Source: a virus
Length of the DNA: 24,071 bases
IMG/VR virus record: IMGVR_UViG_3300021957_005679
Coordinates: 1-24,071 of that record
Direction: 5' to 3' (one strand)
A model generated the notes under the pieces. That model had not been told where the DNA came from. It did not search any database and was given only the letters and a program-made list of their open reading frames with translations. The position numbers were made by a program, and so were the translations under genes. Below are positions 1,499-19,351 of this stretch, piece by piece. Each line of letters begins with the position of its first letter. The first letter of the stretch is position 1.

Positions 1499-2212
1499 AT
1501 GAAGATCAAAGCTTATACACTTTTCACACCAACACACAAGCGCTTTCTAGATGATTATTTGTTGAAATCCTTCAAATACAATCCTAATATTGAATTGACA
1601 ATAATCAGTAAACCACAATTGTGTGACACGGCAGAATTTGGTTCGGATGGATGGCAAAAAACAATGGAATACAAAGCTGACTGTTTCTATGAAAATCTTA
1701 AGAGGTGTGATGAAGAGACAGAATTGTTTATGTTTATTGATCCGGATATAGTGATATATCGAGATTTTTATGACGATATAATTGAACGGATTAAAGATCA
1801 TGATGCTGTGTTTCAGAATGATGGGCCAGGTGGTGTGAATACTGGATTTTTTGTGGTGAGAAACAACAAGAAGACAAGAGGATTTTTCAAAACAGTTAGA
1901 GGTAATCTGCAACATTTCCCGGAAGAGCAACAAACAACAAATTATCTGTTACGCAATTTACACAAGTATCCGACAATACAAATAAAATGGTCCATGTTAC
2001 CAGAAAGTTATTGGACGTACGGTAGTATAGCTGGAATGCCAAACGGAAAAGGTGGATTGATGAGTCATTGGCTTGGTGACACAGAGTTTGATGTGCCGAG
2101 GGACATCTACATACATCACGGCAACTGGACGGTACCCAAAGACAACAAATTTAAAATTTTAGATTATGTTCAAAAAAAGATGGAGCATGTGAATGAAGAT
2201 AATCAAGATTAA
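1499..2212 (+). CDS. Nucleotide-diphospho-sugar transferase-like glycosyltransferase
   Basis: A 237-residue protein. The motif FMFIDPDIVIY places a DxD-type metal site at D81-P82-D83, followed by a VNTGFFVVRNN segment and an EEQQTTNYLL segment. This order (DxD, then N-x-GFF-x-x-R, then a (D/E)Q-x-x-x-N helix) is typical of the nucleotide-diphospho-sugar transferase group of GT-A enzymes (PF03407-like). It would transfer a sugar to an unknown glycan in the cytoplasm. The ATG at 1499 is 17 bases after the previous stop and lacks a clear Shine-Dalgarno sequence. The 3' end overlaps the next gene by 20 bases, fitting a tightly packed operon. Confidence 0.65.
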   Translation: MKIKAYTLFTPTHKRFLDDYLLKSFKYNPNIELTIISKPQLCDTAEFGSDGWQKTMEYKADCFYENLKRCDEETELFMFIDPDIVIYRDFYDDIIERIKDHDAVFQNDGPGGVNTGFFVVRNNKKTRGFFKTVRGNLQHFPEEQQTTNYLLRNLHKYPTIQIKWSMLPESYWTYGSIAGMPNGKGGLMSHWLGDTEFDVPRDIYIHHGNWTVPKDNKFKILDYVQKKMEHVNEDNQD

Positions 2213-2990
2213 AGAATGGTCTTTTGAGCAAAGTAAAGATCCGGTTGCAACAGAGGAGACTGTTTCAAAAAAATTAAACAATATCATCGAAGAATTGTCA
2301 GATGATTTTAATTATGTTGAACTACCTATTTGTTGGTTATTAAACAACAAAGGAGTTGAGTTCACACAACAAGTTTTAGATCAGATAGAAGAGCGAATAA
2401 AAGACACAAAAATATATGTGTGTCAACACATACTGGTCAATCGATTGAATTTCCATGACAATGTAGTATACACTCCTCATGCCACTAGTAAAGATAATTT
2501 TAGAGTCATACCACATTACAATCCTTGTGTAGAGAAACACAATTATATTCCTGTAGAGAATAGAAAATACCATTTCAGTTTCATGGGAAGTTTTCACACA
2601 CACTCGCTAAGACCACAATTACAGCGCGTGTCTGGAAAAGGTGTTTTGATAGAAAACACCGGGCAATGGCATTTTCAAAAGAAAGATAGAGAACAACAAA
2701 CCAAGCGTTATGTTGATGTGTTGTGTGACACAAAATTTGCGTTATGTCCTCCTGGTACAGGTCCTAGCACCATACGATTGTATGAAGCGATGGCCGCGGG
2801 ATGTGTGCCGGTGGTGTTTAATGACGTGAAAATCCCAGAGGTGATGGATCCGTATGTTGTGAGAATAACCACAATTGACGAACTAGTGAATTTAACACAA
2901 GGTTGTATTGATATTAATTATATGAAGATACATGAGTTGTACTGGAGGTATCTTTCAAATGATGTTTATTATCAGTTGATTCATAAATAA
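2193..2990 (+). CDS. Exostosin-like glycosyltransferase (GT47-type)
   Basis: A 265-residue protein whose C-terminal half carries the conserved exostosin/GT47 pattern: YHFSFMGSFHTHSLRPQL, then TKFALCPPGTGPSTIRLYEA, then MAAGCVPVVFND followed by IPEV (about residues 125-215; the CPPG starts near residue 185). In this GT-B family the segment binds the nucleotide sugar and includes the E-A-x-x-x-G-C-x-P signature. The start at 2193 lies inside the upstream gene and is preceded at 7 bases by GGAG (2182-2185), one of the few good ribosome sites here. The stop codon lies within a late-promoter-like box that appears to serve the next gene. Likely a cytoplasmic sugar transferase; substrate unknown. 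Confidence 0.75.
   Translation: MKIIKIKEWSFEQSKDPVATEETVSKKLNNIIEELSDDFNYVELPICWLLNNKGVEFTQQVLDQIEERIKDTKIYVCQHILVNRLNFHDNVVYTPHATSKDNFRVIPHYNPCVEKHNYIPVENRKYHFSFMGSFHTHSLRPQLQRVSGKGVLIENTGQWHFQKKDREQQTKRYVDVLCDTKFALCPPGTGPSTIRLYEAMAAGCVPVVFNDVKIPEVMDPYVVRITTIDELVNLTQGCIDINYMKIHELYWRYLSNDVYYQLIHK
2982..2989 (+). promoter_or_regulatory. T4-type late promoter box (CATAAATA)
   Basis: CATAAATA differs at one base from the T4 late consensus TATAAATA. It overlaps the stop codon of the exostosin-like gene, and its last A is 5 bases before the ATG at 2995. The whole string CATAAATAATTTTATG is nearly identical to the one before the gene at 10909 (CATAAATAATTGTATG). By T4 geometry the transcript would start at the A of the ATG. 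Inference from sequence only. Confidence 0.55.
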
Positions 2991-2994
2991 TTTT

Positions 2995-4377
2995 ATGTTT
3001 GTGTGCAACGGTAATATTCGCAGTGCTATCAATGCGAGGTTAAAACAAAAAAAGTTAGAACCGAAAAAACAGGTGGTTGACACACCAGAGTTGCCGCTAA
3101 TTACACTCCAAGCTAGCGACACTATTTTTATTGGTAGTAAACCTCTATCTGGATTGGATTTCAACAATATAATTGACAAATTTCAAAATAATATTAGAAC
3201 TAATATGGACATACTTTTAGGTAATAACAACGGTACTAAATACGATCAATTATACATGAATTCACATGTTCATTCAAATCTACTTAACAAACGTAATTTT
3301 GATGGCTTCATTAAACAATATTCCCAAAAATCTGAAAAGGGTGTTTTGCAAGAGATTTGGAAAGCGTTTGATAAAAATAAGTTTAAAAAAATACATCGAC
3401 AGAAATGGATAAATAAAAATAAAGCGAATGATGCGTTGAAAAAAATTGGCTGTCCGGTGGTTTTTAATAAGGGTCCTAGGGTGGGGCATGAAGCGATTGT
3501 AAGCACAGCTCAAAACACAAAAGACAGACTGTTTGTTTTTGGTTGTACTGTTCATAAGAATAGCGATATCATTTTAAATCGTTACCATCATCAAGATAGA
3601 GACACAACATCAAGAGTTCATCATGATCCCGATAATGAGGTGGATATACTGCACTGGCTACATGAACATAATCACATTGATATAACTTTTTGTCTCCTAA
3701 AAAATAAAAAAATACCAACACTGGATTGTCAAGGTGTTAGACCTACATTATGTTCAATAAACATGTTAATTAGAGAGTTCGGTATTATTGTCTTGGAGAA
3801 TTATTTCAATAACGCATTTATTGATAGTATATCTGACGAATGTTTAAAATTACTTGTCTCACAAAAGGATGAGATACAAAAGCGTCATGAGATGGGATGT
3901 TGTGGTACCGGGGATATTTTACATTTACAAAAACTTTCCGGTGCTATCAAGAGATATACGAATGAAGAATTATTTAATAATGTTGTTAAGTTGTATAAAG
4001 CACCGCGCAGTAAAAAAATATTAATTGATCATAAGACGCATGATCCTAATACAATTAGTAATGTCACCACTGATTGGCATAAAAATGATCGACATTGTCA
4101 GTTTAAGTCAATTATGTATTTAACAGACACATCTGAACAAAATGGTAATTTTCAATGGATCACAAATTCTTCACCTAGACATATTGATATACCAGGTTCA
4201 AAACTATCAACATATACTGTTGATAGTATTGTGAATAATAATGATAGTTGTGAGTTCGTTGATGTAACGGGCAAGAAAGGTACTATAATAATTGCAGACA
4301 CCTCGTATGTCCATCGAAATAACATTATACATTCAGGTGAACGAGTTGCGATAACACAGAACTATTTTTCCGGTTGA
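2995..4377 (+). CDS. Two-part protein: unknown N-terminal region plus PhyH-like dioxygenase domain
   Basis: A 460-residue protein. The C-terminal part, from about residue 257 (FGIIVLENYF), aligns along its length with the next gene product, sharing CQFKS/T-x-MYLTD, NGNFQW-x-TNS and GERVAITQ; this is a phytanoyl-CoA dioxygenase-like Fe(II)/2-oxoglutarate fold. The expected metal triad is altered: H362 and distal H440 are present with R450 for 2-oxoglutarate, but the HxD aspartate position is N364, with D365 one residue later. Residues about 135-250 form a separate alpha/beta-looking region (PVVFNKGPRVGHE, RLFVFGCTVH, VRPTLCSINMLIREFG) that faintly resembles sialyltransferase-type Rossmann folds; I cannot confirm this. 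A late-promoter box stands just upstream. Role in the glycan island is inferred. Confidence 0.6.
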   Translation: MFVCNGNIRSAINARLKQKKLEPKKQVVDTPELPLITLQASDTIFIGSKPLSGLDFNNIIDKFQNNIRTNMDILLGNNNGTKYDQLYMNSHVHSNLLNKRNFDGFIKQYSQKSEKGVLQEIWKAFDKNKFKKIHRQKWINKNKANDALKKIGCPVVFNKGPRVGHEAIVSTAQNTKDRLFVFGCTVHKNSDIILNRYHHQDRDTTSRVHHDPDNEVDILHWLHEHNHIDITFCLLKNKKIPTLDCQGVRPTLCSINMLIREFGIIVLENYFNNAFIDSISDECLKLLVSQKDEIQKRHEMGCCGTGDILHLQKLSGAIKRYTNEELFNNVVKLYKAPRSKKILIDHKTHDPNTISNVTTDWHKNDRHCQFKSIMYLTDTSEQNGNFQWITNSSPRHIDIPGSKLSTYTVDSIVNNNDSCEFVDVTGKKGTIIIADTSYVHRNNIIHSGERVAITQNYFSG

Positions 4378-4389
4378 ATATATTGCTGA

Positions 4390-4397
4390 TTTAAATA
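4390..4397 (+). promoter_or_regulatory. Possible late promoter box (TTTAAATA)
   Basis: TTTAAATA lies in the 134-base gap after the fused dioxygenase gene, 10 bases before an ATG at 4408. It resembles the other late boxes in this window (TAAATAATT) but the first bases and the spacing are poorer. In AT-rich DNA chance matches are common, so this is weak. Confidence 0.3.
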
Positions 4398-4407
4398 ATT
4401 AATATTG

Positions 4408-4531
4408 ATGTGGCAAAACAAACCAGAAGAACAAAAAGGTGTATGAGAATCATCACGTTGAGTACTATACCAGTGATGGTAAGTATTCATTAACAGACAA
4501 CATTACATTTTATGAACATAACAATATTTGA
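4408..4531 (+). pseudogene. Small frame-broken ORF (unknown protein)
   Basis: The ATG at 4408 opens MWQNKPEEQK and then meets a TGA at 4444-4446. One frame over, the same DNA continues as a protein-like stretch (VYENHHVEYYTSDGKYS, then LTDNITFYEHNNI) to a TGA at 4529-4531, overlapping the start of the next gene. The break falls at CAAAAAGG (4432-4439); deleting one base joins the halves into about 40 residues rich in aromatic and acidic residues. This could be a decayed gene, a sequencing or assembly indel in the A-run, or a programmed frameshift. A GTG at 4439 could also start a 30-residue product. No family recognised. Confidence 0.4.
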
Positions 4532-5201
4532 TTGGAAAGAGGGTGAGTATGATTTTAATTCAATTAAAGAATCATTACATAAACACGGTATATGTATCTT
4601 CAAGAACTATTTTGATATACAGTTTGTGAATGAGCTGCATGCTGAGGCTACTAGATTATTACACGAGCAATCAAGTAAAGTACAAATTCTAGATAAAGAA
4701 GATTGTTCAAATGATGAACGTCTATTCCATGCGCAAAAATATTCAGATAAAATAAAACAATTTGCAGATGATGGTCTGTTGAACAAACTCGCAGCTGCGT
4801 ACAACAAAAACATTAACAAAAAAACACTCATCAACAGAATAGTACATGAACCAGGAGTCGTTAAAAACAGTGGTGCGGGTTGGCATAGAGACAATCATAC
4901 ATGTCAATTTAAAACGCTGATGTACTTAACAGACGTTAATATAAACAATGGTAATTTTCAGTGGGTGACTAACTCTAATGCTAAACATATTGGCATGCCG
5001 ATTCCTCGGACAGACTCATATAACACACGGTTTCACGACCATGTTGTGGAGTCTATTGTTCGAGAGAATGATGCGTGCGAGATAATCGATGTTGTCGGTG
5101 ATGCAGGAGATATTGTAGTGACAGACACTACATACATACATCGTGGAAATATTATACAAGCAGGTGAACGCGTTGCTATAACTCAATATTATTTTACATG
5201 A
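4512..5201 (+). CDS. PhyH-like Fe(II)/2-oxoglutarate dioxygenase
   Basis: A 229-residue single-domain protein with a complete metal site: H125-R-D127 in GWHRDN and distal H210 in TTYIHRGN, plus R220 in GERVAITQ as the likely 2-oxoglutarate ligand. This H-x-D...H...R layout is that of the phytanoyl-CoA/ectoine hydroxylase-type dioxygenases, which hydroxylate C-H bonds using Fe(II), oxygen and 2-oxoglutarate. It is clearly a paralog of the C-terminal domain of the preceding 460-residue protein, so a tandem duplication is likely. Its stop overlaps the methyltransferase start (ATGA at 5198-5201). Located among sugar-transfer and nonulosonate genes, a glycan or sugar-nucleotide substrate is a reasonable guess, but nothing in the sequence proves it. 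Confidence 0.75.
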   Translation: MNITIFDWKEGEYDFNSIKESLHKHGICIFKNYFDIQFVNELHAEATRLLHEQSSKVQILDKEDCSNDERLFHAQKYSDKIKQFADDGLLNKLAAAYNKNINKKTLINRIVHEPGVVKNSGAGWHRDNHTCQFKTLMYLTDVNINNGNFQWVTNSNAKHIGMPIPRTDSYNTRFHDHVVESIVRENDACEIIDVVGDAGDIVVTDTTYIHRGNIIQAGERVAITQYYFT

Positions 5202-5890
5202 TAGAGTTATCAACAATTACAGCTTATTATCGTGAAAATAAAGCTCAACTGCATCAATTTTTCGATAATATAACAAGAAATATTTCCGGGAGGATTCCTC
5301 ATGATTCTATCCTATCACTTAAGATAATTTCAGATCTAATTAAGGTTGAGAATTATTTAGAAATAGGTGTACATAACGGAGGCAGTGCATGTGTTATATG
5401 TGCGGGTAGTGATATAAAAAATATATATGGTATTGATCTGTTTGAAGATATGTACAATGTTGAGAGTCACTACAATGAAGATAAGTTTCGTAAATATCAA
5501 TACTTTAAGAGAGATGATCTTAATAATAATAAATCTCGACGTAATATATTAGGTATATGTGAGCTATATAATACTGAACCTAATTTGCATTTAATACAAG
5601 GTAATACATATTTTGATGAAACAGAACGTAAATTTAAAAATTTACTAGGTGATTTGCAGATAGATTTGATTCACATAGATGGTGATCATACCACCGAGGG
5701 TATTAATAATGATTATGCTAGATATTTTCCGTATTTAAAGGCTGGTGGTATACTTGTATTTGATGATTATCATCATACTGATATTAAGCAGTTTGTGGAT
5801 AGTCTAGGTCCAGAGAATGGTGTTATTAAGATTGGTGTGTTTGAGAGTGATAATTCTAATGCTAAGCAATTTATTATATACAAGCAATGA
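5198..5890 (+). CDS. Class I SAM-dependent methyltransferase (Methyltransf_24-like)
   Basis: A 230-residue protein with a Rossmann-type methyltransferase pattern: motif I YLEIGVHNGGSA (E55-I-G57), an acidic end of strand 2 (YGIDLFEDMY), then DLIHIDGDHTTEGINND (H159-I-D-G-D-H164) and the strand GGILVFDDYHH. The HIDGDH and FDD pair is typical of the TylF/macrocin O-methyltransferase and cephalosporin hydroxylase-related group, where the acidic and histidine residues help bind a divalent metal near the acceptor hydroxyl. It probably O-methylates a sugar. It is coupled to both neighbours: it begins on the stop of the dioxygenase (ATGA) and ends overlapping the phosphatase start (ATGA at 5887-5890). 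Confidence 0.75.
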   Translation: MIELSTITAYYRENKAQLHQFFDNITRNISGRIPHDSILSLKIISDLIKVENYLEIGVHNGGSACVICAGSDIKNIYGIDLFEDMYNVESHYNEDKFRKYQYFKRDDLNNNKSRRNILGICELYNTEPNLHLIQGNTYFDETERKFKNLLGDLQIDLIHIDGDHTTEGINNDYARYFPYLKAGGILVFDDYHHTDIKQFVDSLGPENGVIKIGVFESDNSNAKQFIIYKQ

Positions 5891-6177
5891 AGACAATATA
5901 TGTTGATATTGATGGAACTATATGTACCATTCATGATGATTATAATAAAGCAGAACCAATAGTAAAAAATATTGATAAAATTAATAACCTATACAAACTA
6001 GGTAATTATATCAAATACTGGACAGCTAGAGGTACTTGCACCGGAATTGATTGGTATTCAACGACAGAACAACAGCTGAAAGAATGGGGTTGTAAATACA
6101 ATGAGCTTTCTGTTGGAGAGAAACCAGCATACGATCTCATCATTTGTGACAAATCTAAAAGAATCGAGGAAATTTAA
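5887..6177 (+). CDS. Small HAD-family phosphatase, capsule-biosynthesis type
   Basis: A 96-residue minimal HAD hydrolase. Motif I is D7-I-D9-G-T, with D7 the predicted nucleophile; motif II is YWTARG (T46); motif III is the K in VGEKPAYD (K79); and motif IV is D83-x4-D88 in DLIICD. All four catalytic motifs are present in a protein with almost no cap, as in small phosphatases found in bacterial capsule and LPS loci. It could act on a sugar phosphate, for example a nonulosonate 9-phosphate or a hexose phosphate, but the substrate is not visible. The start overlaps the methyltransferase stop; the downstream GT4 gene begins 1 base after its stop. Confidence 0.7.
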   Translation: MKTIYVDIDGTICTIHDDYNKAEPIVKNIDKINNLYKLGNYIKYWTARGTCTGIDWYSTTEQQLKEWGCKYNELSVGEKPAYDLIICDKSKRIEEI

Positions 6178-6178
6178 C

Positions 6179-7225
6179 ATGCACATTCTCTTGAAAAAAC
6201 ATACAGATGTACACAAAGGTGTGTTAATAATAACACATAAAGAATATCCATTTTTAAAGAATAAATTGAAACATCTAAAACAAGATTATTATATATTATG
6301 CCATTACGGATGGAATGTTGCAGTGATGCATGACAGTAATATTGATAACTATTTAATACCTGAGTCGCGATCTGTTGATAAGAGTTTACCATTTACCAGT
6401 CGAAATTTTTTACCTAATTGTTTTTCTCAAGAAGGAGATTTAGACACTTTAAATAAAATACTAACAAAATATGGCATTAAGAATAATATTCTTAATAGAA
6501 TAGATTTTCTACATGTAGGTAGAGCGGTAGAGTTTAAAAAACTTATAGATACACTATTAGGTTTTCAAGAATTCAATGCTAAACACGATAACAAATACAC
6601 AATCTGTTTTGTAATCCTGGAACAACCACCTACTGACTATTATCATAAATTTTTGAAAACATATTCAGAAACGGACAATTCACGTTGTTTACTCATAGAT
6701 ACACACTGTTTTGATAATAATAATGATGTTTTTAAGGGATTATCAAGTGAAGAGCTAGCAGTGATATACTCTAATTCAAATATCTATATACATGGGAGTG
6801 AGGAGGAAGGAGAATCAAGAACTATACAGGAAGGTTTGCTATCTGGTTGTGTTGTGATGGCAAAGGATAATATGAAGGGTGGTGGTTTGGATTATTTAAA
6901 CTTTCACAACAGTGTGTTGTACAACAAGACAAATATTGTCTCCAAGATGGTTGAGTGTGTTGATAAACAGAAAAATTATATTATGGATGATAGTGTGAAC
7001 CAATTGGTAAATGAGAAATATACTGTAAATAAATTTTTGAAGTCCATATACAAAAAATATAAATATGAAATGGAATTCGAGAAGTTTGCTGATAATTGTA
7101 ATACTGATTCTTTATGCTTTTCATTACCGGGCCATAACCTGAAGGTCGATTGGTTTTTAGATGGTAAACCTACTGCAGACATTTTGACAGACAAGCAGTA
7201 TGATATTTTTACAAATTATATTTAA
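6179..7225 (+). CDS. GT4-family glycosyltransferase
   Basis: A 348-residue GT-B protein. The start is placed at 6179 rather than at upstream in-frame codons because GAGGA (6166-6170) stands 8 bases before it and it follows the phosphatase stop directly. The C-terminal half shows the usual GT4 order: a FLHVGRAVEFKKLIDTLLGF segment (cf. VGR...KG...), a long strand ICFVILE, an ELAVIYSNSNIYIHGS region, and the EX7E nucleotide-sugar motif E210-x7-E218 in EEGESRTIQEGLLSGC. The N-terminal acceptor domain is shorter than in many relatives. It lies directly before the nonulosonate synthase gene and is a candidate for moving a sugar onto the same glycan; true CMP-nonulosonate transferases usually belong to other families. 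Confidence 0.75.
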   Translation: MHILLKKHTDVHKGVLIITHKEYPFLKNKLKHLKQDYYILCHYGWNVAVMHDSNIDNYLIPESRSVDKSLPFTSRNFLPNCFSQEGDLDTLNKILTKYGIKNNILNRIDFLHVGRAVEFKKLIDTLLGFQEFNAKHDNKYTICFVILEQPPTDYYHKFLKTYSETDNSRCLLIDTHCFDNNNDVFKGLSSEELAVIYSNSNIYIHGSEEEGESRTIQEGLLSGCVVMAKDNMKGGGLDYLNFHNSVLYNKTNIVSKMVECVDKQKNYIMDDSVNQLVNEKYTVNKFLKSIYKKYKYEMEFEKFADNCNTDSLCFSLPGHNLKVDWFLDGKPTADILTDKQYDIFTNYI

Positions 7226-7226
7226 A

Positions 7227-8045
7227 ATGAGTGTTAAAATTATAGCAGAAATAGGAATTAATCATAACGGTGACATCGACATCGCGAAAAAGTTAATTGA
7301 TGTTGCAGCGGTTGCGGGATGTGATTACGTTAAATTTCAGAAAAGAACACCTGAGCTATGTGTACCAGAAGAGCAAAAAAGGGTAATGAGAGATACACCG
7401 TGGGGTAGAATCACATATCTAGAATACAAACATAAAACAGAGTTCGGTAAACAGGAGTATGATGAGATCGCAAGATATTGTGACCAAAAAAATATAAAAT
7501 GGTTTGCTAGTGTGTGGGATTTAGAGTCAGTCAAATTCATGAGCGAGTATGTTAATATGACGAAAGTACCCTCTGCTCTAATTAATAATCTTGAGTTACT
7601 CAAAGACTGTAGAGATCGTAATGATTATTTTATGTTCTCCACTGGCATGAGCGATGAACAGGAAATTGATGCAGCTATACATGCTGGTGACCCAAATCTC
7701 ATATTTCATACAAACGCCACCTATCCATGTCCGGTTGAACAACTCAACATGCGATACATTAACTGGTTACAGGACAAACATCCAGATAGAGAGGTCGGAT
7801 ACAGTGGACATGAGTTCGGTTTAGTTCCAACATTTGTGGCTGTGGCCATGGGAGCATCTTGGGTCGAGAGACACATAACATTAGACAGAACCATGTGGGG
7901 ATCTGATCATATGGCTTCTGTTGAACCTGGCGGTTTGATCAAGATGTGTAAGAGCATTCGAGATATTGAAAGATGCTTCGGAGAGGCTAGTCCTAGAAAA
8001 GTTTCCGGTGGAGAATTAGATAAAAGGAAGAGTTTGAGAGGTTAG
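7227..8045 (+). CDS. neuB: N-acetylneuraminate/nonulosonate synthase, SAF-less
   Basis: A 272-residue NeuB-family TIM-barrel enzyme, which condenses phosphoenolpyruvate with an N-acetyl hexosamine-type substrate to make a nine-carbon acid sugar. Family hallmarks are AEIGINHNGD near the N-terminus, YVKFQKR, a TYPCPVEQLNM strand, GYSGHE (H195) and WVERHITLDR (H216). The two histidines are 21 residues apart, as are the Mn-binding pair in characterised NeuB. The start at 7227 is chosen because it gives the usual short N-terminus and follows the upstream stop. Known NeuB proteins are about 340-350 residues with a C-terminal antifreeze-like SAF domain; this one stops at KRKSLRG, just where that domain would begin. 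It is followed at 15 bases by the neuA-like gene. Confidence 0.85.
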   Translation: MSVKIIAEIGINHNGDIDIAKKLIDVAAVAGCDYVKFQKRTPELCVPEEQKRVMRDTPWGRITYLEYKHKTEFGKQEYDEIARYCDQKNIKWFASVWDLESVKFMSEYVNMTKVPSALINNLELLKDCRDRNDYFMFSTGMSDEQEIDAAIHAGDPNLIFHTNATYPCPVEQLNMRYINWLQDKHPDREVGYSGHEFGLVPTFVAVAMGASWVERHITLDRTMWGSDHMASVEPGGLIKMCKSIRDIERCFGEASPRKVSGGELDKRKSLRG

Positions 8046-8060
8046 TATGGTGTATAGTAT

Positions 8061-8693
8061 ATGAAAGTAGTATCAGTAATATTAGCACGAGGAGGTAGCA
8101 AGGGAATACCACATAAGAATATAATAGATGTTAACGGTAAACCATTACTACACTACACGGTTACCGCGTCCAAAAATTCTAACACTGATGAAACGTGGGT
8201 TAGTACTGATTGTGTAAAAATTAAAGATGTTGCGTTAGATTTAGGGTGTAAAGTTATCGATCGCCCGGCAGTTATCTCTGAAGATGATTCAAAAAGCGAT
8301 GAAGCTCTTTTACATTTTGCTGAGAATGTAGATTTTGATATATTAGTGTTCATACAACCAACATCGCCGTTGTTACTTGCAAGTGATATCAATCAAGGCT
8401 TAGATATAATGAATAAATATGATTCAGTATTTAGTGTGACAGAAGAGCATTGGGTTCCTCGCTGGAATAAAAATAATGAACCTATCAATTGGAATATCAA
8501 TCATAGACCTATGAGACAGGATGTAGATGAGACATATATTGAGAATGGTGCCTTTTACATAACAACAAGAGATCAACTATTAAAATCTGGTTTGCGCTAT
8601 GGTGGTAAAATCGGGACTGTAAGGATGCCACTGCATCGTAGCTTTCAAATCGACACACACGATGACTTGAAGTTAATTAGTAAATTGTTATGA
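8061..8693 (+). CDS. neuA: CMP-nonulosonate cytidylyltransferase (NeuA-like)
   Basis: A 210-residue cytidylyltransferase, which would join CMP from CTP to an acidic sugar made by the upstream synthase. The N-terminal P-loop-like signature ILARGGSKGIPHKN (residues 7-20), GKPLLHYTV, the strand FIQPTSPLL, a central YIENGAFYIT segment and the C-terminal SFQIDTHDDL are all typical of NeuA/SpsF-type enzymes. The length fits the compact bacterial form without extra domains. The gene follows the synthase by 15 bases with no clear Shine-Dalgarno site. The exact sugar (sialic, legionaminic or another) cannot be read from the sequence. It is the last gene of the glycan island; phage core genes follow. 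Confidence 0.82.
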   Translation: MKVVSVILARGGSKGIPHKNIIDVNGKPLLHYTVTASKNSNTDETWVSTDCVKIKDVALDLGCKVIDRPAVISEDDSKSDEALLHFAENVDFDILVFIQPTSPLLLASDINQGLDIMNKYDSVFSVTEEHWVPRWNKNNEPINWNINHRPMRQDVDETYIENGAFYITTRDQLLKSGLRYGGKIGTVRMPLHRSFQIDTHDDLKLISKLL

Positions 8694-8741
8694 ATATATC
8701 TGAATTAAACTTTATGGAAAGACAATATGATTATGTATGTA

Positions 8742-8749
8742 TCTAAATA
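8742..8749 (+). promoter_or_regulatory. Possible late promoter (TCTAAATA)
   Basis: In the 95-base gap between the neuA-like and DUF366-like genes, TCTAAATA (8742-8749) and TATAAATG (8784-8791, running into the ATG at 8789) both resemble the late box. The first would give a leader of about 34 bases. The second would put transcription start inside the coding region, so it is not favoured for this gene. Weak, because the gap is very AT-rich. Confidence 0.3.
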
Positions 8750-8788
8750 GTGCTTGTATTTTACATTATATTATCATATAATATATAA

Positions 8789-9373
8789 ATGATAATTGAT
8801 CAAAAAACATATGATGGTGATTTAATTCACCGGCGATTCGCGTATACATTTTTTAAAAACAGAACATTACCCATTGGAAACATCGTGACATTCAGAAGTC
8901 CCATGCTTGTTGAAGCTGATGGCATGATCGATCATGAAGATGTGCTCAAGAACGATTTCATATATAGTGATGATGCAATCAATTTTTGTTGGGAGATTCC
9001 CGGAATGGATGCATTTGGTGCAGTGGCATGGCAACGTTTGTTCAACACATCATTAGCTAATATATTACAAAACTTGATAAAAGCTCCAATCGAAGTTGAT
9101 GGTGATGATTTGATTGTACATAAAGAGTTCAAAAGTGGTGGTATAATACAAACCAAAGGCAAGTGTAGTGTGAGTATCACCTACACAAAAGATGGAGCTG
9201 CCCTAGGACACACAGGTATCAATGTACGAGCCGGTGATCGAGCTCCTAGCTTCGCGTACAGCACCGACTTGACGGACGAACAAATCAAGACATTTCAAGA
9301 CACAGTGGTGGAGATGTTTTATGCCATGAATGATGATATGTTTCTAGCTACTACCAAAATCATAACCAAGTGA
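8789..9373 (+). CDS. DUF366-like protein (biotin/lipoate ligase-related fold)
   Basis: A 194-residue protein. The N-terminal pattern YDGDLIHRRFAYTFF, then GNIVTFRSPMLVE, then MIDHEDVLKNDFIYSDDAINF matches my memory of archaeal and bacterial DUF366 (PF04017) proteins, including the order Y-D-G, a long aromatic helix, VxFR, and M-x-D-x-E-D. That family has a fold related to biotin/lipoate protein ligases, but its reaction is unknown. A later IEVDGDDLIVH hairpin followed by a CSVSITYTKDGAALGHTGINV sheet fits the same fold. It is followed with a GTGA overlap by the clamp-loader-like gene, so it belongs to the phage core block rather than the glycan operon. Identification rests on motif memory without a search. 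Confidence 0.5.
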   Translation: MIIDQKTYDGDLIHRRFAYTFFKNRTLPIGNIVTFRSPMLVEADGMIDHEDVLKNDFIYSDDAINFCWEIPGMDAFGAVAWQRLFNTSLANILQNLIKAPIEVDGDDLIVHKEFKSGGIIQTKGKCSVSITYTKDGAALGHTGINVRAGDRAPSFAYSTDLTDEQIKTFQDTVVEMFYAMNDDMFLATTKIITK

Positions 9374-10147: not shown

Positions 10148-10533
10148 TGAAGATCGGTGCAACCACATTACGTGCGTTGCTTGAAAACAATGTATTAGAA
10201 ATTAAATTCAAGCGTCGCCGATCAAAACCTGGGGCTCCAGCCACCAGGAGAATGTTGTGCACCAACAGTCCTGTGATATTGCAGAGTGACGCAGGACGAA
10301 CAACTTTAAAATATTCACGACCAACTGGTTCTCCAAACTACAACCCGGCTGGTAAAAACATCGTGATTGCATGGGACATAATCAAACAAGACTATCGTGC
10401 CATTAGTGTGGACAACTGCGAGCTGTTGAGTCAAATGCCAGTGAGTGGAGACGGGAGAGATTTCTGGCAATATTTCAATCAAAGTGTTTATCCAATGACA
10501 CCAGGACAGAAGAAAGGATTTTTCAATGTTTGA
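10147..10533 (+). CDS. WYL_2/DUF2693-like SH3-barrel protein
   Basis: A 128-residue protein whose ATG shares one base with the upstream stop (TAATG). The pattern LLENNVLEIKFKRR, RRMLCTNSPVIL, and NIVIAWDIIKQDYRAISVDN follows that of the DUF2693/WYL_2 proteins common in T4-like marine phages: a short helix, V-x-x-x-F-x-K, R-x-(M/L)-x-C-T, and V-(V/I)-W-D-x-x-x-x-x-(F/Y)-R-x-x-x-x-(D/N). These are predicted Sm-like SH3 barrels; the role in phage is unknown. A C-terminal tail with FWQYFNQSVY is extra. The 3' end overlaps the next gene by 8 bases. Confidence 0.5.
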   Translation: MKIGATTLRALLENNVLEIKFKRRRSKPGAPATRRMLCTNSPVILQSDAGRTTLKYSRPTGSPNYNPAGKNIVIAWDIIKQDYRAISVDNCELLSQMPVSGDGRDFWQYFNQSVYPMTPGQKKGFFNV

Positions 10534-10876
10534 CGTGGTGCATGAAAACATGAAACTGCTGGAACCTTTGCTGCAAAAAAACGTGATGTTCAACGTGGAA
10601 CACAAAACATTACGCAAAGGTAAGTTGATGCTGTACAACGTGAATGATTATCATATCAAGTTCACCATACGCACAAACAAAGACGTGCTGAAAACATATG
10701 AAATACCCTTTCCATTTATGATAACAAGTACCGACACACATGCGGTTCTATCCTATCAGATACACGAGCTATGCATGGGTAACGCACGTAAACAACAGAT
10801 GATAAGACTGTTTGAGCCGTTGCAAAACAAGTTGTATGACAAAGAGCTGTATATTGTGAATGTTGATGCTATTTGA
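10526..10876 (+). CDS. Unknown phage protein
   Basis: A 116-residue protein that I do not recognise. It alternates hydrophobic strands with basic stretches (MFNVEHKTLRKGKLMLYN, YHIKFTIRTNKDVLKTYEI) and then has a helix-rich C-terminal part (HELCMGNARKQQMIRLFE), so a small alpha+beta cytoplasmic protein is likely. It has no signal peptide, membrane segment or metal motif. Its start overlaps the WYL_2-like gene by 8 bases, so it is probably coexpressed with the clamp-loader-like, GroES-like and WYL_2-like genes. Confidence 0.6.
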   Translation: MFDVVHENMKLLEPLLQKNVMFNVEHKTLRKGKLMLYNVNDYHIKFTIRTNKDVLKTYEIPFPFMITSTDTHAVLSYQIHELCMGNARKQQMIRLFEPLQNKLYDKELYIVNVDAI

Positions 10877-10895: not shown

Positions 10896-10903
10896 CATAA
10901 ATA
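10896..10903 (+). promoter_or_regulatory. T4-type late promoter box (CATAAATA)
   Basis: CATAAATA ends 5 bases before the ATG at 10909 and is followed by ATTGT, with no Shine-Dalgarno sequence. The 16-base context matches the site at 2982 in all but one position. A transcript starting by T4 spacing would begin at the A of the ATG. Confidence 0.6.
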
Positions 10904-10908
10904 ATTGT

Positions 10909-11130
10909 ATGGCGAATATACAACCAATTTTTACAAACATTCCACCTGCGAAAGGTGATGTAGATTACTCCCCACTCGGTGGTAAAGTCGGTTTAACTGC
11001 TGAGGATAAAGCTAACATACAAGCTGTTGCTAGTACTGATGCAACTACAGCGATCGAAGCTGGTTACGGTGCAGCTGACGATGGTGAAGTGTTAGATCAT
11101 TGCCGCAGAAGAAATCTTGGATTGATATAA
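10909..11130 (+). CDS. Small unknown protein with its own late promoter
   Basis: A 73-residue protein, start chosen at the ATG directly behind the late box; an in-frame TTG at 10873 overlapping the previous stop is less likely. The sequence begins MANIQPIFTNIPPAKGDVDY, then PLGGKVGLTAEDKANIQAV, an alanine/threonine-rich stretch, and ends in a basic cluster (DHCRRRNLGLI). No family recognised. The N-terminal half looks like a structural decoration or tail-peptide segment. The abrupt basic end, followed at once by a non-coding stretch, may mean that the gene has been shortened. A hairpin with one bulge (11136-11157) starts 6 bases after the stop. Confidence 0.5.
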   Translation: MANIQPIFTNIPPAKGDVDYSPLGGKVGLTAEDKANIQAVASTDATTAIEAGYGAADDGEVLDHCRRRNLGLI

Positions 11131-11530
11131 CATTCCACCGGTAGTTTTCTCCGGGTGATTGTTCCGTACACAATGCACCTATGAACTAACATAGATACAT
11201 TGAGTTGGTAGTTATATCCGTAATGATATGCTCACGCAAAGACGCACTCTTTGAGGTATTAATTTTATGGAGAATCCTGACCTAATAAACTCCGGTTACA
11301 AGTAACCACTAATACATGCCGACATTCAAGTCGCAGTTCGGTGCAATGCAGATGTTACTCTGCCGTTTTTCAGCTGCCGTCTAACAGTTGTGTTTAATTT
11401 AGCTTTGTCCTTTCCAGCAGTTCTCTCTGCCGAGTCACAAACCATCTTCAAGTCGACTACTACTCACGCTCGTGTACCGAAAACGCTGATGGATATACTA
11501 TAGCGTTGTTTCACACTTGTGTACCATTAA
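11131..11530 (+). ncRNA. Candidate structured RNA / non-coding region
   Basis: About 400 bases with no convincing gene and GC somewhat above the flanks. Visible inverted repeats: a bulged hairpin at 11136-11157; a two-part hairpin where CAATG (11171-11175) pairs with CATTG (11198-11202) around CTATG/CATAG (11179-11183 with 11190-11194), separated by a symmetric 3x3 internal loop; a tight hairpin GGTTAC-AA-GTAACC (11294-11307); and AACGCT/AGCGTT (11482-11487 with 11502-11507). A 14-base imperfect tandem repeat CTGCCGT...CAG lies at 11360-11387. I see no tRNA cloverleaf, T-loop or CCA end. The strand is assumed from the neighbours. A 200-base open stretch in one frame (11306-11509) lacks a good start. 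Confidence 0.35.
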
Positions 11531-11676
11531 TATAATATAGTATATATACAAAAAGTCAACCTAGATTTAACTTTTAAAGATGTTAAATATTATAAATGAT
11601 TAATCAACCACAAATACAATGCATTTGATTTTTACACTTATATGTGTTATATTGGCATGAGTTATTAAGTTTAGGT
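11531..11676. other. AT-rich intergenic spacer
   Basis: A very AT-rich stretch between the structured region and the gp15-like gene. It holds a weak inverted repeat (AAAAGT near 11551 with ACTTTT near 11570) and a TATAAATG string at 11591-11598 that resembles a late box but has no gene behind it (only a 10-codon ORF). Nothing else supportable is seen. Confidence 0.4.
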
Positions 11677-11684
11677 TATAAATA
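11677..11684 (+). promoter_or_regulatory. T4-type late promoter box (TATAAATA)
   Basis: An exact TATAAATA, the T4 late consensus, ends 6 bases before the ATG of the gp15-like gene at 11691, with only ATATAA between and no Shine-Dalgarno sequence. It is the strongest promoter match in the window and drives a known class of late gene. Confidence 0.7.
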
Positions 11685-11690
11685 ATATAA

Positions 11691-12809
11691 ATGAAGAGCA
11701 GTCCATATTATTTTGAGATAAAAGATGTGATGACACAGTTTGTTGCTGCATTCAATGATATAATCATCAATAGATACAACAAATCTCGAGATAAAAAGAG
11801 TCGTGTCAAAGTGAGATACATGTATTCACCCAAGCAAAGAGTTGTGCATGATTTGACCAACAAAGCTAGGCACATCACTCTTCCGGTGGTTGCAGTTAAC
11901 ATAACTGGCATGTCCAGAGATGAAGGTAGAGTGTTCAACAAAATAGAAGGTTCATATTTATCATCAGAAGAAAGACATCAAAGTGCATCTAAGACTGAAT
12001 TGTCACAAAGCACATATCACACACCTCAGCCAGTGCCAATAAACATTCAGGTGAGCATGAGTATACTTGCTAGATATCAATCAGATATTGAACAGATTGT
12101 GAGTAATTTTGTACCCTATTGTGATCCATATATTGTAATTTCATGGAAAATGCCCAATGAATTCACACCATTGAAAGATCAAGAGATACGTAGTGAAGTT
12201 GATTGGAGCGGTGACCTGTCTATAAATTATCCAGAACAACTCACAGGTTCAGAACCATACAGAGTTAGTGCCGACACGAGTTTCACCATACGTACATGGT
12301 TGTTCAAAAAAGCTCCAACGCCTGTTGGAAATGTATTTCACATCACAACCAACATCACCCCGGTGTCAAGTATCGATTCAAGTTTCTCATTCTCATTACC
12401 GTATTATGACGATGTTACTGAGAAATCATATATACAAGGATTGGGACCATCTCTAACAGCAGCACCGTTTTTGACACATGTTGATACATCAGGTCAATAC
12501 AATGAACTCATAGGTTATAATTTCAATAGTGTTTTGAATGTATATCTTTCCAGTAGTGAAATTAACGAATTGAGTGGTCAAGGAGTGGTTCCTTTCAACA
12601 GCCCAGGGCTTGAATATATGTCAACATTACATCCTCCATTTACAGCTGTACCTGTAAATTTTGAAATTATTAACGATAATAAAATATATTTTAATATACC
12701 CACTGATATTGAGCTAAATGATGAAGTGGATATAGTGATCAGAAATATTGGTGGTTATGAAACAGCTCTAAATTCAACATTGCACGGAAAAGGTATATTC
12801 ATACAATAG
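11691..12809 (+). CDS. 15: Tail sheath stabiliser/completion protein, T4 gp15-like
   Basis: A 372-residue protein. The first 225 residues follow T4 gp15: an N-terminal SPYYFEIKDVMTQFVAAFND helix, IINRYNKSRDKKSRVKVRYM, a RHITLPVVAVNITGMSRD strand with basic neighbours, then VPINIQVSMSILARYQSDIE and QIVSNFVPYCDPYIVISW, comparable to the gp15 segment IYELSIFTRYEDDMFQIVEQ...YFQPHF. gp15 caps the tail tube and sheath and joins tail to neck in T4. T4 gp15 is about 270 residues; here about 145 extra residues follow, with a pattern like an IPT/TIG Ig-like domain (IGYNFNSVLNVYLSSS, INDNKIYFNIPTDIELNDEV, DIVIRNIGGY). Its own late promoter stands directly upstream. Confidence 0.75.
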   Translation: MKSSPYYFEIKDVMTQFVAAFNDIIINRYNKSRDKKSRVKVRYMYSPKQRVVHDLTNKARHITLPVVAVNITGMSRDEGRVFNKIEGSYLSSEERHQSASKTELSQSTYHTPQPVPINIQVSMSILARYQSDIEQIVSNFVPYCDPYIVISWKMPNEFTPLKDQEIRSEVDWSGDLSINYPEQLTGSEPYRVSADTSFTIRTWLFKKAPTPVGNVFHITTNITPVSSIDSSFSFSLPYYDDVTEKSYIQGLGPSLTAAPFLTHVDTSGQYNELIGYNFNSVLNVYLSSSEINELSGQGVVPFNSPGLEYMSTLHPPFTAVPVNFEIINDNKIYFNIPTDIELNDEVDIVIRNIGGYETALNSTLHGKGIFIQ

Positions 12810-16400: not shown

Positions 16401-17321
16401 ACAGATATCGACAATACGTATACACACTCAACGACAAATCATTTGACATTTGATATGGTAACGGAATATATAGATGGTACAAGAAAAACAAATGTTGTTA
16501 TACTTTCACACACTACAAATAGTACTAACGTCAAGGTTATCAAGTTAAATTTAAACGGTAGTGTTGATAATATATCAACGAAAACATTACCTTTTGTTGA
16601 TGTAAACCCTATTGATAGTTATCATAATTTCTCTAACTTTGACACCGTCAAGAGATTGTTTTATAATTATTACAATAATAATTATATGACTCTCAAGATG
16701 AGATATCAGAGTTATTTTGACACTGATAGAACATACATCGCATATTTGCATTACAATGTGAGTGAACTCACGGCTGGAGAGCACCACTTCGCGGCTAGTT
16801 TTAATTCCCTAAATGGTAATTTGTCATTTTTTATTGATGGTGTATTAACAAACACAGCAACAAGTAATGATACACAAACAGGAGCCGCGTACAAATTCTC
16901 TAAAACTATACACAATCCATTATTCGCGGGTTGTGATAGCTTTTTCAACAACATAACATTATCTGAAAATCTGAAACTCGAGAATATGAACTTTGCTATG
17001 AACTGCACTATATCAAACATAAGCGTGTACAACGAATATCTAAACTTTTATAAAATAAAAGCGTTAACTAGAAAAAATTTAAACATCAGAAAAGTTGTTT
17101 TGACACTACCAACTGGAAAGCGTTCTTATGTTGATCAAATGCCTGTGTTTTACAAGCATAAAATACCAGGAAGAAAAGCTAATTATTTTGATATAGATGT
17201 CATATCTACTGATATAAATGATATAAACACACAACTTCAGATTACAGAACAGGTAAAAGATCAATTAACAGACAACTTACCAGTGAATGTTAAATTAAAT
17301 AATATGAACTGGAAAACATAA
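13473..17321 (+). CDS. Large adhesin-like virion protein (CBM5/12-like, LamG-like, propeller-like)
   Basis: A 1282-residue protein; the ATG at 13473 overlaps the upstream stop by one base. Residues 1-400 are beta-rich without a recognised family. Around residues 440-500 there is a CBM5/12-like chitin/sugar-binding pattern (TDWDSLTIYNSDVLVNYDG, LTYRSTERNTGKKP, then a W). A LamG/concanavalin-like fold seems to start at about residue 600 (LLLDGTNYVETNA, DFTISFHLSTND) and to resume at about 1097 (ELTAGEHHFAASFNS, GNLSFFIDGVLTNTA). Between them lie propeller-like strands (LYILTKPDDYVIYQYD, YIYILDTSGVYRFDI, GNLWVLST). It is probably an external tail or baseplate protein binding a surface polysaccharide. 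No catalytic motif is seen. The next gene starts on its stop (TAATG). Confidence 0.6.
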   Translation: MKNIKINPDVNWRAHVPKYAHDDMTVIKNKNIITAEGLQLNISDTMSNVIDTSSNNFTQLMLTDNIKLDDMLKLKIDTPTYPEQFTTSIIFGGFPNLGGNTNFLMILEKEDNTRARDYVIGQRIVDSVGYNSNYFEVSRTSNNTVYHNITLHDDTFLSINHNDNYANVFLKHTGDPAQGTSVFVFEETDLNIPGDDQKFRYIIDKEQGYLVIYKNIQGTTYFLNTIYDDNINGVKLNFTQPTEGDTSISIDSIIRIVPYTKQTKRDITLVNAWNSYRNVGDQNNLKVNFTKSYNDLNNNFLLSNTYTTNQTSFDILQLRNQVTPTNKSTRGNPFVNYIDCDHREYDKIFSGTNQIYGSPKLATGYNSYSTTIDLLPDNVTYFHAPQDMYPYDKINVNDSGLIEAGAIGGDTPIVSDKLFKKAADYKYNTPYGAPTDEETGVWLCSWLRSNPGTDWDSLTIYNSDVLVNYDGLTYRSTERNTGKKPTIYKSTWTEVKDASPVWVDRYYNPKKYTVAEALQVKGQYYEYTDKFDSIVKTLKADDKIIFDKKSDVCFEPGSLYAYYRIGAVENDVIIETLKNNLVHQGISPAYKQDRSLHVNNSETHLLLDGTNYVETNALNKTTNSDFTISFHLSTNDWSKKFGSQIVGNYTNHGVAIFNEITTTPYMVFTTDTTVEIYSSNFDHVTTITPEYVPIKTVHAEGSENLYILTKPDDYVIYQYDKKGMLVERFELPDTIVDVTDFNIDLEYIYILDTSGVYRFDINNENRDLLFNVWPEQATGSGSSPAGGSFITSPTTFIEPYGDSTYRINCDTYTLDVSGNYWFAKDNQVFKLVPNETRGINATFTGVFAGSLISLVSVERNRGGTFGNQIVLVGDGSRTLEELITVWNNENSGNRVEAQVLDSLGLILPNDYVMQLSGGVDRGASTTQYSLSGDPGNIINQIKSDIDGNLWVLSTLQNETTIYKMTPDRAIIFCSTLTDIDNTYTHSTTNHLTFDMVTEYIDGTRKTNVVILSHTTNSTNVKVIKLNLNGSVDNISTKTLPFVDVNPIDSYHNFSNFDTVKRLFYNYYNNNYMTLKMRYQSYFDTDRTYIAYLHYNVSELTAGEHHFAASFNSLNGNLSFFIDGVLTNTATSNDTQTGAAYKFSKTIHNPLFAGCDSFFNNITLSENLKLENMNFAMNCTISNISVYNEYLNFYKIKALTRKNLNIRKVVLTLPTGKRSYVDQMPVFYKHKIPGRKANYFDIDVISTDINDINTQLQITEQVKDQLTDNLPVNVKLNNMNWKT

Positions 17322-19351
17322 TGAGCATAACAGACACTAGCAGCTTTTCACCTGAGATTATCGATACACTTATAACATATAAGTATCAAACGGATCGATT
17401 AACCGGTGATCAATTAAGTTTACCATACGATTATAATTCTACAAAAATTAAAGCGAACGATTTTGTTGTTAGTGACACAGTCAATTATACATTTGAAAAA
17501 TTATACGAAAATTGGTTATACTTAATATCATATTCTGTCATACCGTCAAATAATATACCCAACACGGATTATTATAATAGTATAATCATTGATCAAGGCT
17601 CAGGTCTTACATGGAACGATTCAACAACTTTTCCGAATGTTTCAGGGTTTACCACCGGTAATTTACTATCTGGTGTTAAGAGAATAACTAAAATTGAAAA
17701 TATAGCCAACCCGAACAACTTTAACATAATAGCTTCCACCACCACTAACTTAATGCTGTTAAGCGGTACCGGTACCACATCAATTGATCTCGTTCTTAAT
17801 GATAACGACCCTACAGTTCCAATATATTCTAACAGCAACATAACGCACCCGTCAAATGAAATATATTTTCAGAATATTATAGATCATTTAATAACAGATC
17901 AAAGAGATCTCTTCGTACTAGATGGAGATCTCAAAACAATTTTTAAATTCGATATTAGCGGCATTTTAACTATTGACCAATCAATATTATTAAATGATAC
18001 TCCCGGGAGGTTGATGACAGGCTTGATCGGTGGATCTGGAAATGCTACTGATAAAACAAAATTTAGAAACCCTGTAGCGATTGAGACAGTTGATAATTTA
18101 ATATATGTGTTAGATTTCTCATCAGAAAATCCTAGGTCTCTGGATGATAGTTATATAAAAATATTTGACTCAGAATTGAATTGGAAAGCAAGTGCCAATA
18201 TACAAACACATGCAAATGACGGGCCGCTGGATATGAAGTTCAACTCTGATAATCAAAGATTTTATATACTGACACACGAGTCAAGCTTCTCACAAAACGC
18301 GAGTGATAATCTACCGTTCCTTGTTGAATATGATATAGAATTTAATTTTTTAGAAAAATATCCCTTGATAGACCTGTCAAGACACTCTGCAGAAATAAAC
18401 AAAGAGCAGTTTAAAAAGATATATTTTAGTAATGAAAATAAGAATATATTTTATGTTGTAACAGATAAAAATATTTATAAAAAATATATCTCTAGGCCCA
18501 CAGATTTTATTGGTGTGTTTTTATTAGATGAGAAAAACATCGGAACCGGTGGTGCTTCGGACCGAAATTTTGAAGATATCACCATAACAGACCATCTACT
18601 AACTCAAGGAAATGAGACAATAAAAAAAGATGAAATATTATTAGTTGAGAGTAAAACAGAAGTGATACACAGATTTCTAGAGGATAGTGGTTATGAAAGT
18701 AGTTTAGAAACACAATTTGATAACAAAGCTTTGTTCTTGAAAGATTTAATAATAAATCCAAGCGAATATGTTTCAACACTAGTATACAATAAAACGTTTG
18801 CTAAACACCTATATAACAATCTCCTCTTATTGGAAAATACATCTAGAAAATTTTCTACAAAATTTGATATTTCTGGTATATCTAGATACATAGGATTCAC
18901 ATACTTGAATGAAGACGAGCTGAGAGCATTAGAGTATAAAATAACACAAAATAATTATATAGGAAATAATGAACTGTTAATAACAACAACAGTCAACAGG
19001 TGCATCGACGAAATTATAAAGCTTCAATCTACAATATTAAACAACATGCAAGAGAAGCCGATTAATGTGTTTCCGTTGATAGAGAATCCAGTTCAGTTGT
19101 TACCATGTGATGAATTAGCTTATAATGCGTTTGTGAGAGAGACAGAACCAGATTATGATGCTGATAGATTGTCCAACCGGTTTGAACGTGGTATTGGTAC
19201 TGATCCTGGATATGCAGATACTGATAGAGACAACTTGTCTGACGGTGAAGAAGTCTTAGTGTTGGGTACAGATCCGTTAGATAAGGATTCCGACAATGAC
19301 GGTGTACAAGACGATGTTGATAATTTTCCGATGGATCCAGATCAATCTTAA
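17321..19351 (+). CDS. Virion protein with propeller-like middle and C-terminal TSP3-like calcium repeats
   Basis: A 676-residue protein starting on the previous stop (TAATG). Residues about 195-400 carry repeated strands of the type D-L-F-V-L-D, IYVLDFSSEN, RFYILTHESS and IFYVVTDKNI, suggesting an NHL/beta-propeller domain like that of the upstream protein. Residues about 410-600 are helical. Residues 607-676 form thrombospondin type 3-like repeats: YDADRLSNRFE, GTDPGYADTDRDNLSDGEE, LGTDPLDKDSDNDGVQDD, ending VDNFPMDPDQS. The D-x-D-x-D-G-x-x-D spacing binds calcium in thrombospondins and bacterial surface proteins. In phage such a tail may stiffen or anchor a fibre in seawater-level calcium; this is inference. 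No signal peptide or enzyme motif is seen. Confidence 0.6.
   Translation: MSITDTSSFSPEIIDTLITYKYQTDRLTGDQLSLPYDYNSTKIKANDFVVSDTVNYTFEKLYENWLYLISYSVIPSNNIPNTDYYNSIIIDQGSGLTWNDSTTFPNVSGFTTGNLLSGVKRITKIENIANPNNFNIIASTTTNLMLLSGTGTTSIDLVLNDNDPTVPIYSNSNITHPSNEIYFQNIIDHLITDQRDLFVLDGDLKTIFKFDISGILTIDQSILLNDTPGRLMTGLIGGSGNATDKTKFRNPVAIETVDNLIYVLDFSSENPRSLDDSYIKIFDSELNWKASANIQTHANDGPLDMKFNSDNQRFYILTHESSFSQNASDNLPFLVEYDIEFNFLEKYPLIDLSRHSAEINKEQFKKIYFSNENKNIFYVVTDKNIYKKYISRPTDFIGVFLLDEKNIGTGGASDRNFEDITITDHLLTQGNETIKKDEILLVESKTEVIHRFLEDSGYESSLETQFDNKALFLKDLIINPSEYVSTLVYNKTFAKHLYNNLLLLENTSRKFSTKFDISGISRYIGFTYLNEDELRALEYKITQNNYIGNNELLITTTVNRCIDEIIKLQSTILNNMQEKPINVFPLIENPVQLLPCDELAYNAFVRETEPDYDADRLSNRFERGIGTDPGYADTDRDNLSDGEEVLVLGTDPLDKDSDNDGVQDDVDNFPMDPDQS

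Follow-up and report, generated by a model that had tools for sequence, protein, structure and literature searches.

The gap at positions 11131-11690 of the window, the 24,071-base virus record IMGVR_UViG_3300021957_005679 of a T4-like phage, almost certainly encodes a structured RNA. Comparison of homologous sequences places this RNA with high confidence on the minus strand, opposite to the genes, where about 385 nt are conserved and fold into 16 helices, two of them pseudoknots (Table 1). The RNA probably represents an independent non-coding gene with a promoter of its own. The window is assigned to the T4-like phages because the first gene after the gap belongs to the family phrog_227 and because Gp23 is present on related contigs, namely on two (G001 and G002) of the four related contigs searched together with the window. 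Among the matches listed, the best isolate for this major capsid protein is a Prochlorococcus phage with only 36% identity, which sets the group far from cultured phages.

Table 1 Features in and around the gap. Paired segments of a helix are separated by a slash.
Feature	Positions	Strand	Remarks
116-aa gene	10526..10876	+	closest upstream neighbour of the RNA in 21/31 homologues
73-residue ORF	10909..11130	+	adjoins the gap; own late box CATAAATA at 10896-10903
Structured RNA	~11140-11525	-	predicted 5' end near 11525; from 31 aligned homologues, pair counts and strand tests
Repeat R1	11150..11159	-	flanks P1
Hairpin P1	11171-80/11193-202	-	ten unbroken pairs, on minus only; hairpin of the earlier note
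Repeat R2	11217..11227	-	on the other side of P1; changes together with R1
P2 enclosing P3, P4	11256..11315	-	P2 11256-63/11308-15; both-side changes in 7/8 pairs
P3	11269-72/11290-93	-	both-side changes in 3/4 pairs
P4	11294-97/11304-07	-	both-side changes in 2/4 pairs
Pseudoknot PK1	11277-79/11334-36	-	98.9% of cells paired; both-side changes in 2/3 pairs
Hairpin P5	11320-23/11330-33	-	both-side changes in 4/4 pairs
Hairpin P6	11348-51/11360-63	-	100% of cells paired; both-side changes in 3/4 pairs
Hairpin P7	11374-76/11385-87	-	both-side changes in 3/3 pairs
Hairpin P8	11415..11432	-	5 pairs, 4 invariant; outermost C-G 24/U-A 7
Pseudoknot PK2	11433-36/11455-58	-	98.4% of cells paired; both-side changes in 3/4 pairs
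P9 enclosing P10, P11, P12	11442..11492	-	P9 arms 11442-46/11488-92
P10	11450-53/11462-65	-	within P9
P11	11466-68/11484-86	-	within P9
P12	11470-72/11478-80	-	within P9
P13 enclosing P13a	11495..11524	-	P13 11495-98/11521-24; P13a 11502-06/11513-17
-10-like box TATTAT	11532..11537	-	16 bases from the -35-like box
-35-like box TTGACT	11554..11559	-	TTGA in 30/31 flanks
Late box TATAAATA	11677..11684	+	of the tail sheath stabilizer gene
Tail sheath stabilizer gene (phrog_227)	11691..12809	+	family match; first gene after the gap

An earlier note on this DNA had described a stretch of about 560 bases without a gene, and the gap indeed measures 560 bases. The only ORFs of at least 40 aa inside it or reaching into it encode 41 and 42 aa, both on the minus strand. 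The first 400 bases (11131-11530) are richer in GC than the later spacer (42% vs 19%), as the note had stated. The hairpin that it had drawn at 11171-11202 is present and corresponds in relatives to the conserved helix P1, some pairs of which have changed on both sides. A small tandem repeat that it had listed, CTGCCGT, occurs in the window and found no support from relatives. The folding energy of the single sequence lies within chance on either strand (z -1.1 on plus, -1.4 on minus).

At least 31 distinct homologues, the window included, were found in IMG/VR contigs of T4-like phages. A search with the tail sheath protein gave 13 loci, eight of which (three identical) carry about 420 bases that are 84-91% identical to the gap. 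The set was enlarged through conserved DNA patterns and alignments of neighbouring proteins, the protein searches covering the best 80 of 214 and of 478 loci. Copies with an identical core were removed before counting, which left 31 sequences in each of the alignments A8 (plus) and A9 (minus). In a separate MAFFT alignment of those 31 homologues, the mean pairwise identity is 0.63.

The conserved region does not behave as a coding sequence. No conserved protein frame crosses it, stop codons being found in all six frames of all 31 homologues, and 117 of 125 deletions relative to the majority are not multiples of three. Open stretches do exist in relatives, but their frames differ and indels in the loops break them. 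Across 105 pairs of 15 loci, the RNA has a mean identity of 0.69, compared with 0.61 in a 128-aa gene and 0.53 in the 116-aa gene; the DNA identity of the RNA exceeds that of the 116-aa gene in all 105 pairs and that of the 128-aa gene in 101.

The fold is supported by extensive covariation. In the 73-pair structure on the minus strand, including both pseudoknots, 97.1% of 2256 cells from the 31 homologues are paired, and 51 of the 73 pairs have changed on both sides, amounting to 333 such cells. None of 500 shuffles matched the pairing or the covariation of this structure, and sliding it lowered the paired fraction to 31-38%. A 57-pair structure on plus letters gave a similar picture, with 96.6% of cells paired, both-side changes in 44 pairs, no equally good result in 500 shuffles, and 28-48% when slid. 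On a tree built from 310 unpaired columns, at least 150 Watson-Crick switches are distributed over these 57 pairs, 34 of which switch at least twice. Moreover, the top column pairs by corrected mutual information are nearly all complementary. Two measures contributed little: the count of further pair types was reached by all of 500 shuffles on plus and by 15 of 500 on minus, a mild excess on the latter strand, and RNAalifold applied to ten close relatives detected covariation in 5 of 87 pairs. Taken over all 31 homologues, the covariance analysis that the earlier note had proposed thus reveals stems that are kept and carry compensatory changes. The structured RNA that it had suspected between the genes is strongly supported; the plus-strand expression that it had proposed is not.

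Pair counts within the alignments distinguish the two strands. For the 57 pairs, a set selected on plus, the plus letters give 42 A-C cells vs 19 G-U cells; 17 pairs lean to A-C and four to G-U (two-sided p 0.007). Read on minus, the 73 pairs show 199 G-U vs 33 A-C cells and are formed in 97.1% of cells vs 89.8% on plus, both figures being biased because this set was extended on minus; the 57-pair count, unlike the 73-pair count, is free of that bias. In addition, on the minus strand P2 grows to eight and P1 to ten unbroken pairs, and both helices are complete only there. Wobble pairs are found at individual positions on minus, for example at 11309/11262 in P2 (G-U 22, A-U 5, G-C 4) and at 11515/11504 in P13a (U-G 27, C-G 4 of 31). 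The plus-strand reading, on which the structure was first based, was dropped on account of the A-C excess and the minus-strand promoter. Since covariation alone cannot separate RNA from single-stranded DNA, the fold could also act in DNA, as an origin, a recombination site or a packaging site. We regard this as extremely unlikely, because strand-specific tolerance of G-U is an RNA trait and a predicted promoter is located at the expected end.

This promoter, whose existence is highly likely on the sequence patterns, is recognised by a -35-like and a -10-like box in the minus-strand flanks just before the RNA, 24 of 31 of which contain GTTGAYTT. Both boxes, defined as TTGA followed 13-19 bases on by a match to TATAAT in at least five of six places, are present in 28 of 31 minus-strand flanks. 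By contrast, 200 rounds of dinucleotide shuffling gave 2.7 flanks on average and never more than 8, and the plus strand of these flanks gave 3 of 31. A less restrictive scan found a summed score of at least 10 in 19 of 31 flanks, as compared with 9.8% of shuffles; in 30 of 31, L215 being the exception, 11-18 bases separate the end of the best-scoring boxes from P13a, pointing to a start at or just before P13. A strict promoter pattern occurs once each in G000, G001 (146.8 kb), and G002, every time at the RNA; it is absent from G004 and G005, and the reversed control gave a single match, in G001. The promoter resembles either a phage middle promoter or the bacterial sigma-70 type, in which 16-18 bases separate TTGACA from TATAAT. 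Its own boxes lie 14-19 bases apart, frequently 15, which is less than the typical sigma-70 spacing of 17, so a middle-type promoter is possible, as is a phage-specific type.

From this promoter, transcription would start at about 11525 and proceed in the direction of the 116-aa gene, and the transcript would fold into the 16 helices including the two pseudoknots. Expression would be expected early or in mid-infection, given that the promoter differs from the late type, TATAAATA. Conservation fades near 11140 on the 3' side, where no terminator was recognised by eye.

The gene neighbourhood bears on whether the RNA could be part of a messenger. Among downstream ORFs of at least 60 aa, the tail sheath stabilizer gene comes first in 21 of 31 homologues and second in another 8; in L211 and L214 no match to it was seen among the first two. 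Upstream, the nearest gene is other than the 116-aa gene in 10 of 31, although the counts may include short ORFs that are not genes. The earlier note had considered a late small RNA or 3' UTR element, transcribed from the late promoter at 10896 together with the 73-residue ORF. This promoter does not apply to an RNA on the minus strand, and an element in the UTR of one gene is at odds with neighbours that vary on both sides. A plus-strand late RNA or 3' UTR element derived from the tail-gene transcript is in general very unlikely. In its favour, the plus letters accommodate all 57 pairs, the RNA starts no more than about 20 bases away from the 116-aa stop codon in 19 of 31, and late boxes are nearly absent from the 500 bases before the RNA (2 of 31). 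The excess of A-C cells and the poorer pairing on plus, the conserved promoter facing the other way, and the changes of the nearest upstream gene weigh against it. The downstream position of the tail sheath stabilizer gene would suit a 5' UTR control element of that gene, a reading to which we give hardly any credence: the RNA lies on the wrong strand, other ORFs intervene in 10 of 31, and in many homologues the gene's own late box stands between, a plus-strand late box being present in 24 of 31 flanks (the window's own box is beyond the flank cut used). A separate minus-strand gene remains the preferred reading. The RNA has persisted where genes were inserted on one side or the other of it, which makes action in trans fairly likely. 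The RNA is better conserved than the two coding genes compared and is kept as its neighbours change, so it is maintained by selection.

Several further observations concern the surrounding genes. Relatives of the 73-residue ORF (10909-11130) are located beside the 116-aa gene in L044, L045, L048, L049, and L051, where they are followed by a large protein resembling the 1284-aa one; the ORF may be the head of a tail fibre or a broken-off start. The run of genes at 1499-9373 contains sugar and modification functions, including glycosyltransferases (Nucleotid_trans, exostosin GT47, phrog_2170), a PhyH dioxygenase, and a methyltransferase, together with NeuB, a CTP transferase, and DUF366; these genes may make a sialic-acid-like sugar. 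A 676-aa protein (17321-19351) has a weak match to bacterial TSP3 repeats near its end, under the curated cut-off.

The individual helices differ in how strictly they are kept, while many loops and joining strands are almost invariant. P13 is the weakest helix in the window sequence, and 13 of 31 homologues do not form the inner pair of P9. P12 is formed by UCG/CGA in most of them and by CCU/AGG in L130, L131, and L215, the loops differing. PK1 connects the P3 loop with the strand next to P5, and PK2 connects the P10 loop with the strand outside P9. An additional hairpin at 11245-11255 is tentative, with a mean best stem of 4.2 against 3.8 (sd 0.2) in shuffled segments. The P1 strand at 11198-11200 covaries with two partners, 11175 and 11318 (C-G/U-A; regions 11173-11175 and 11316-11318), which could reflect a base triple or a change between two alternative folds.

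The repeats R1 and R2 carry the same letter at 11153/11220 in 28 of 31 homologues, at 11159/11227 in 25 of 29, and at 11157/11225 in 22 of 31, values reached by none of 5000 shuffles; at 11158/11226 the letters agree in 27 of 29, and one of 5000 shuffles was as high. These shuffle statistics ignore the kinship of the sequences. As equal letters cannot pair with each other, the simplest reading is that R1 and R2 would contact one common partner.

As far as the fragments show, the RNA marks one clade. A core model of 107 positions found no match in 36 of 38 records, the two matches being the known holders G001 and G004, and none in 41 of 42 loci, the sole match being the positive control L057; blastn with L009 returned nothing in 32 records. 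Seven near relatives searched (G015-G021) also lack the tail sheath gene on their contigs, so that the RNA may be only apparently absent there. In the outgroup loci L061, L064, L067, L068, L074, and L078, the place that the RNA occupies in the clade, directly behind the 116-aa gene, is taken by a gene encoding 540-545 aa, and their contigs gave no core-model match. The protein at this place in L061 is a helicase.

The RNA appears not to have been described before. The whole Rfam library, searched on both strands with five members, contained no credible match; weak matches (carA with E 0.53, P31, snoRNAs, and others) fell far under the gathering scores and differed between members. Comparison of four members with 50,697 phage records by blastn gave no significant match, a 25-base match with E 5 to a Synechococcus phage being taken as chance. 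The searches made of plasmid and GTDB collections were likewise without significant match: a first GTDB pattern scan was empty, and a second gave one match, in an Omnitrophota MAG (L221), in which only 27 bases align to the profile and which we attribute to chance. Entries close to the genome of the window may have been withheld from the phage, plasmid, and GTDB collections. The earlier note could not fit a tRNA, a tmRNA or a group I intron, in agreement with empty results from ARAGORN and from Rfam at the gathering score. ARAGORN detected no tRNA or tmRNA in the window, L003, L005, L008, L009, L018, or L024, and five of five contigs (24 to 147 kb, possibly fragments) carry no tRNA gene. Rfam gave no match to group I or II introns or RNase P RNA, and the RNA also sits between genes. 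By the tests made here the RNA forms a new family, whose broad kind, large phage RNAs of unassigned function, is already known.

Other phage RNAs offer points of comparison. GOLLD assembles as a cage of 14 copies, ICP1 is a myovirus, and CfrI is an antisense RNA. In the available text of the papers found, which include PMC7567579, PMC12286853, PMC2864571, and PMC9964418, no description of the present RNA was encountered. GOLLD is a large ornate RNA of phages and prophages, seen in marine samples and with no assigned function (PMC12286853), and is in these respects similar to our RNA; it is often longer than 800 nt and near tRNAs, whereas the RNA here has about 385 nt and no tRNA on five contigs. 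ROOL is also large and phage-borne, with several pseudoknots and no assigned function, the example given having 659 nt and the family often being found near tRNA islands (PMC12286853), unlike the shorter RNA here, which has no Rfam match. The Rfam covariance models of GOLLD and ROOL did not match five members on either strand, and the resemblance would be one of kind, no kinship being detected. In ICP1, an abundant non-coding transcript of about 800 bases comes from ORF-less space beside the lysis cluster (PMC7567579). It likewise is a long RNA from the ORF-less space of a lytic phage, differing in length and location from the RNA here, for which four members gave no significant blastn match to phages. 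The manA and wcaG motifs are structured RNAs of T4-like cyanophages and marine metagenomes, located in 5' UTRs of metabolic genes (PMC2864571). In contrast to these cis elements, the RNA here is longer, has its own predicted promoter and tail-gene neighbours, and matched neither Rfam model. CfrI is a further non-coding RNA of T4-like cyanophages (PMC9964418), while the RNA here lies on the minus strand opposite the gap, not opposite a gene.

The near-invariance of many loops and joining strands suggests a compact scaffold that binds protein or RNA, and a protein-bound scaffold is a possible role that we put forward tentatively. The size, the two pseudoknots, and the joining strands would also fit a ribozyme or a self-assembling RNA instead of a protein scaffold, which we consider unlikely; Rfam holds no credible ribozyme match to the RNA, and no catalytic motif was recognised. 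A broader proposal, which we regard as rather doubtful, is that the RNA represents a new class of large pseudoknotted RNA machine, as an RNA-only assembly, a ribozyme or the core of an RNP, expressed from an early-type promoter in one T4-like clade, with twin repeats coevolving to fit a host or phage partner in host takeover or evasion. To our knowledge, few RNA families have so many covarying helices and pseudoknots. GOLLD and ROOL are longer and have no assigned role, and the RNA described here would provide a clean test case, being a single gene whose start is predicted and whose fold is amenable to probing.
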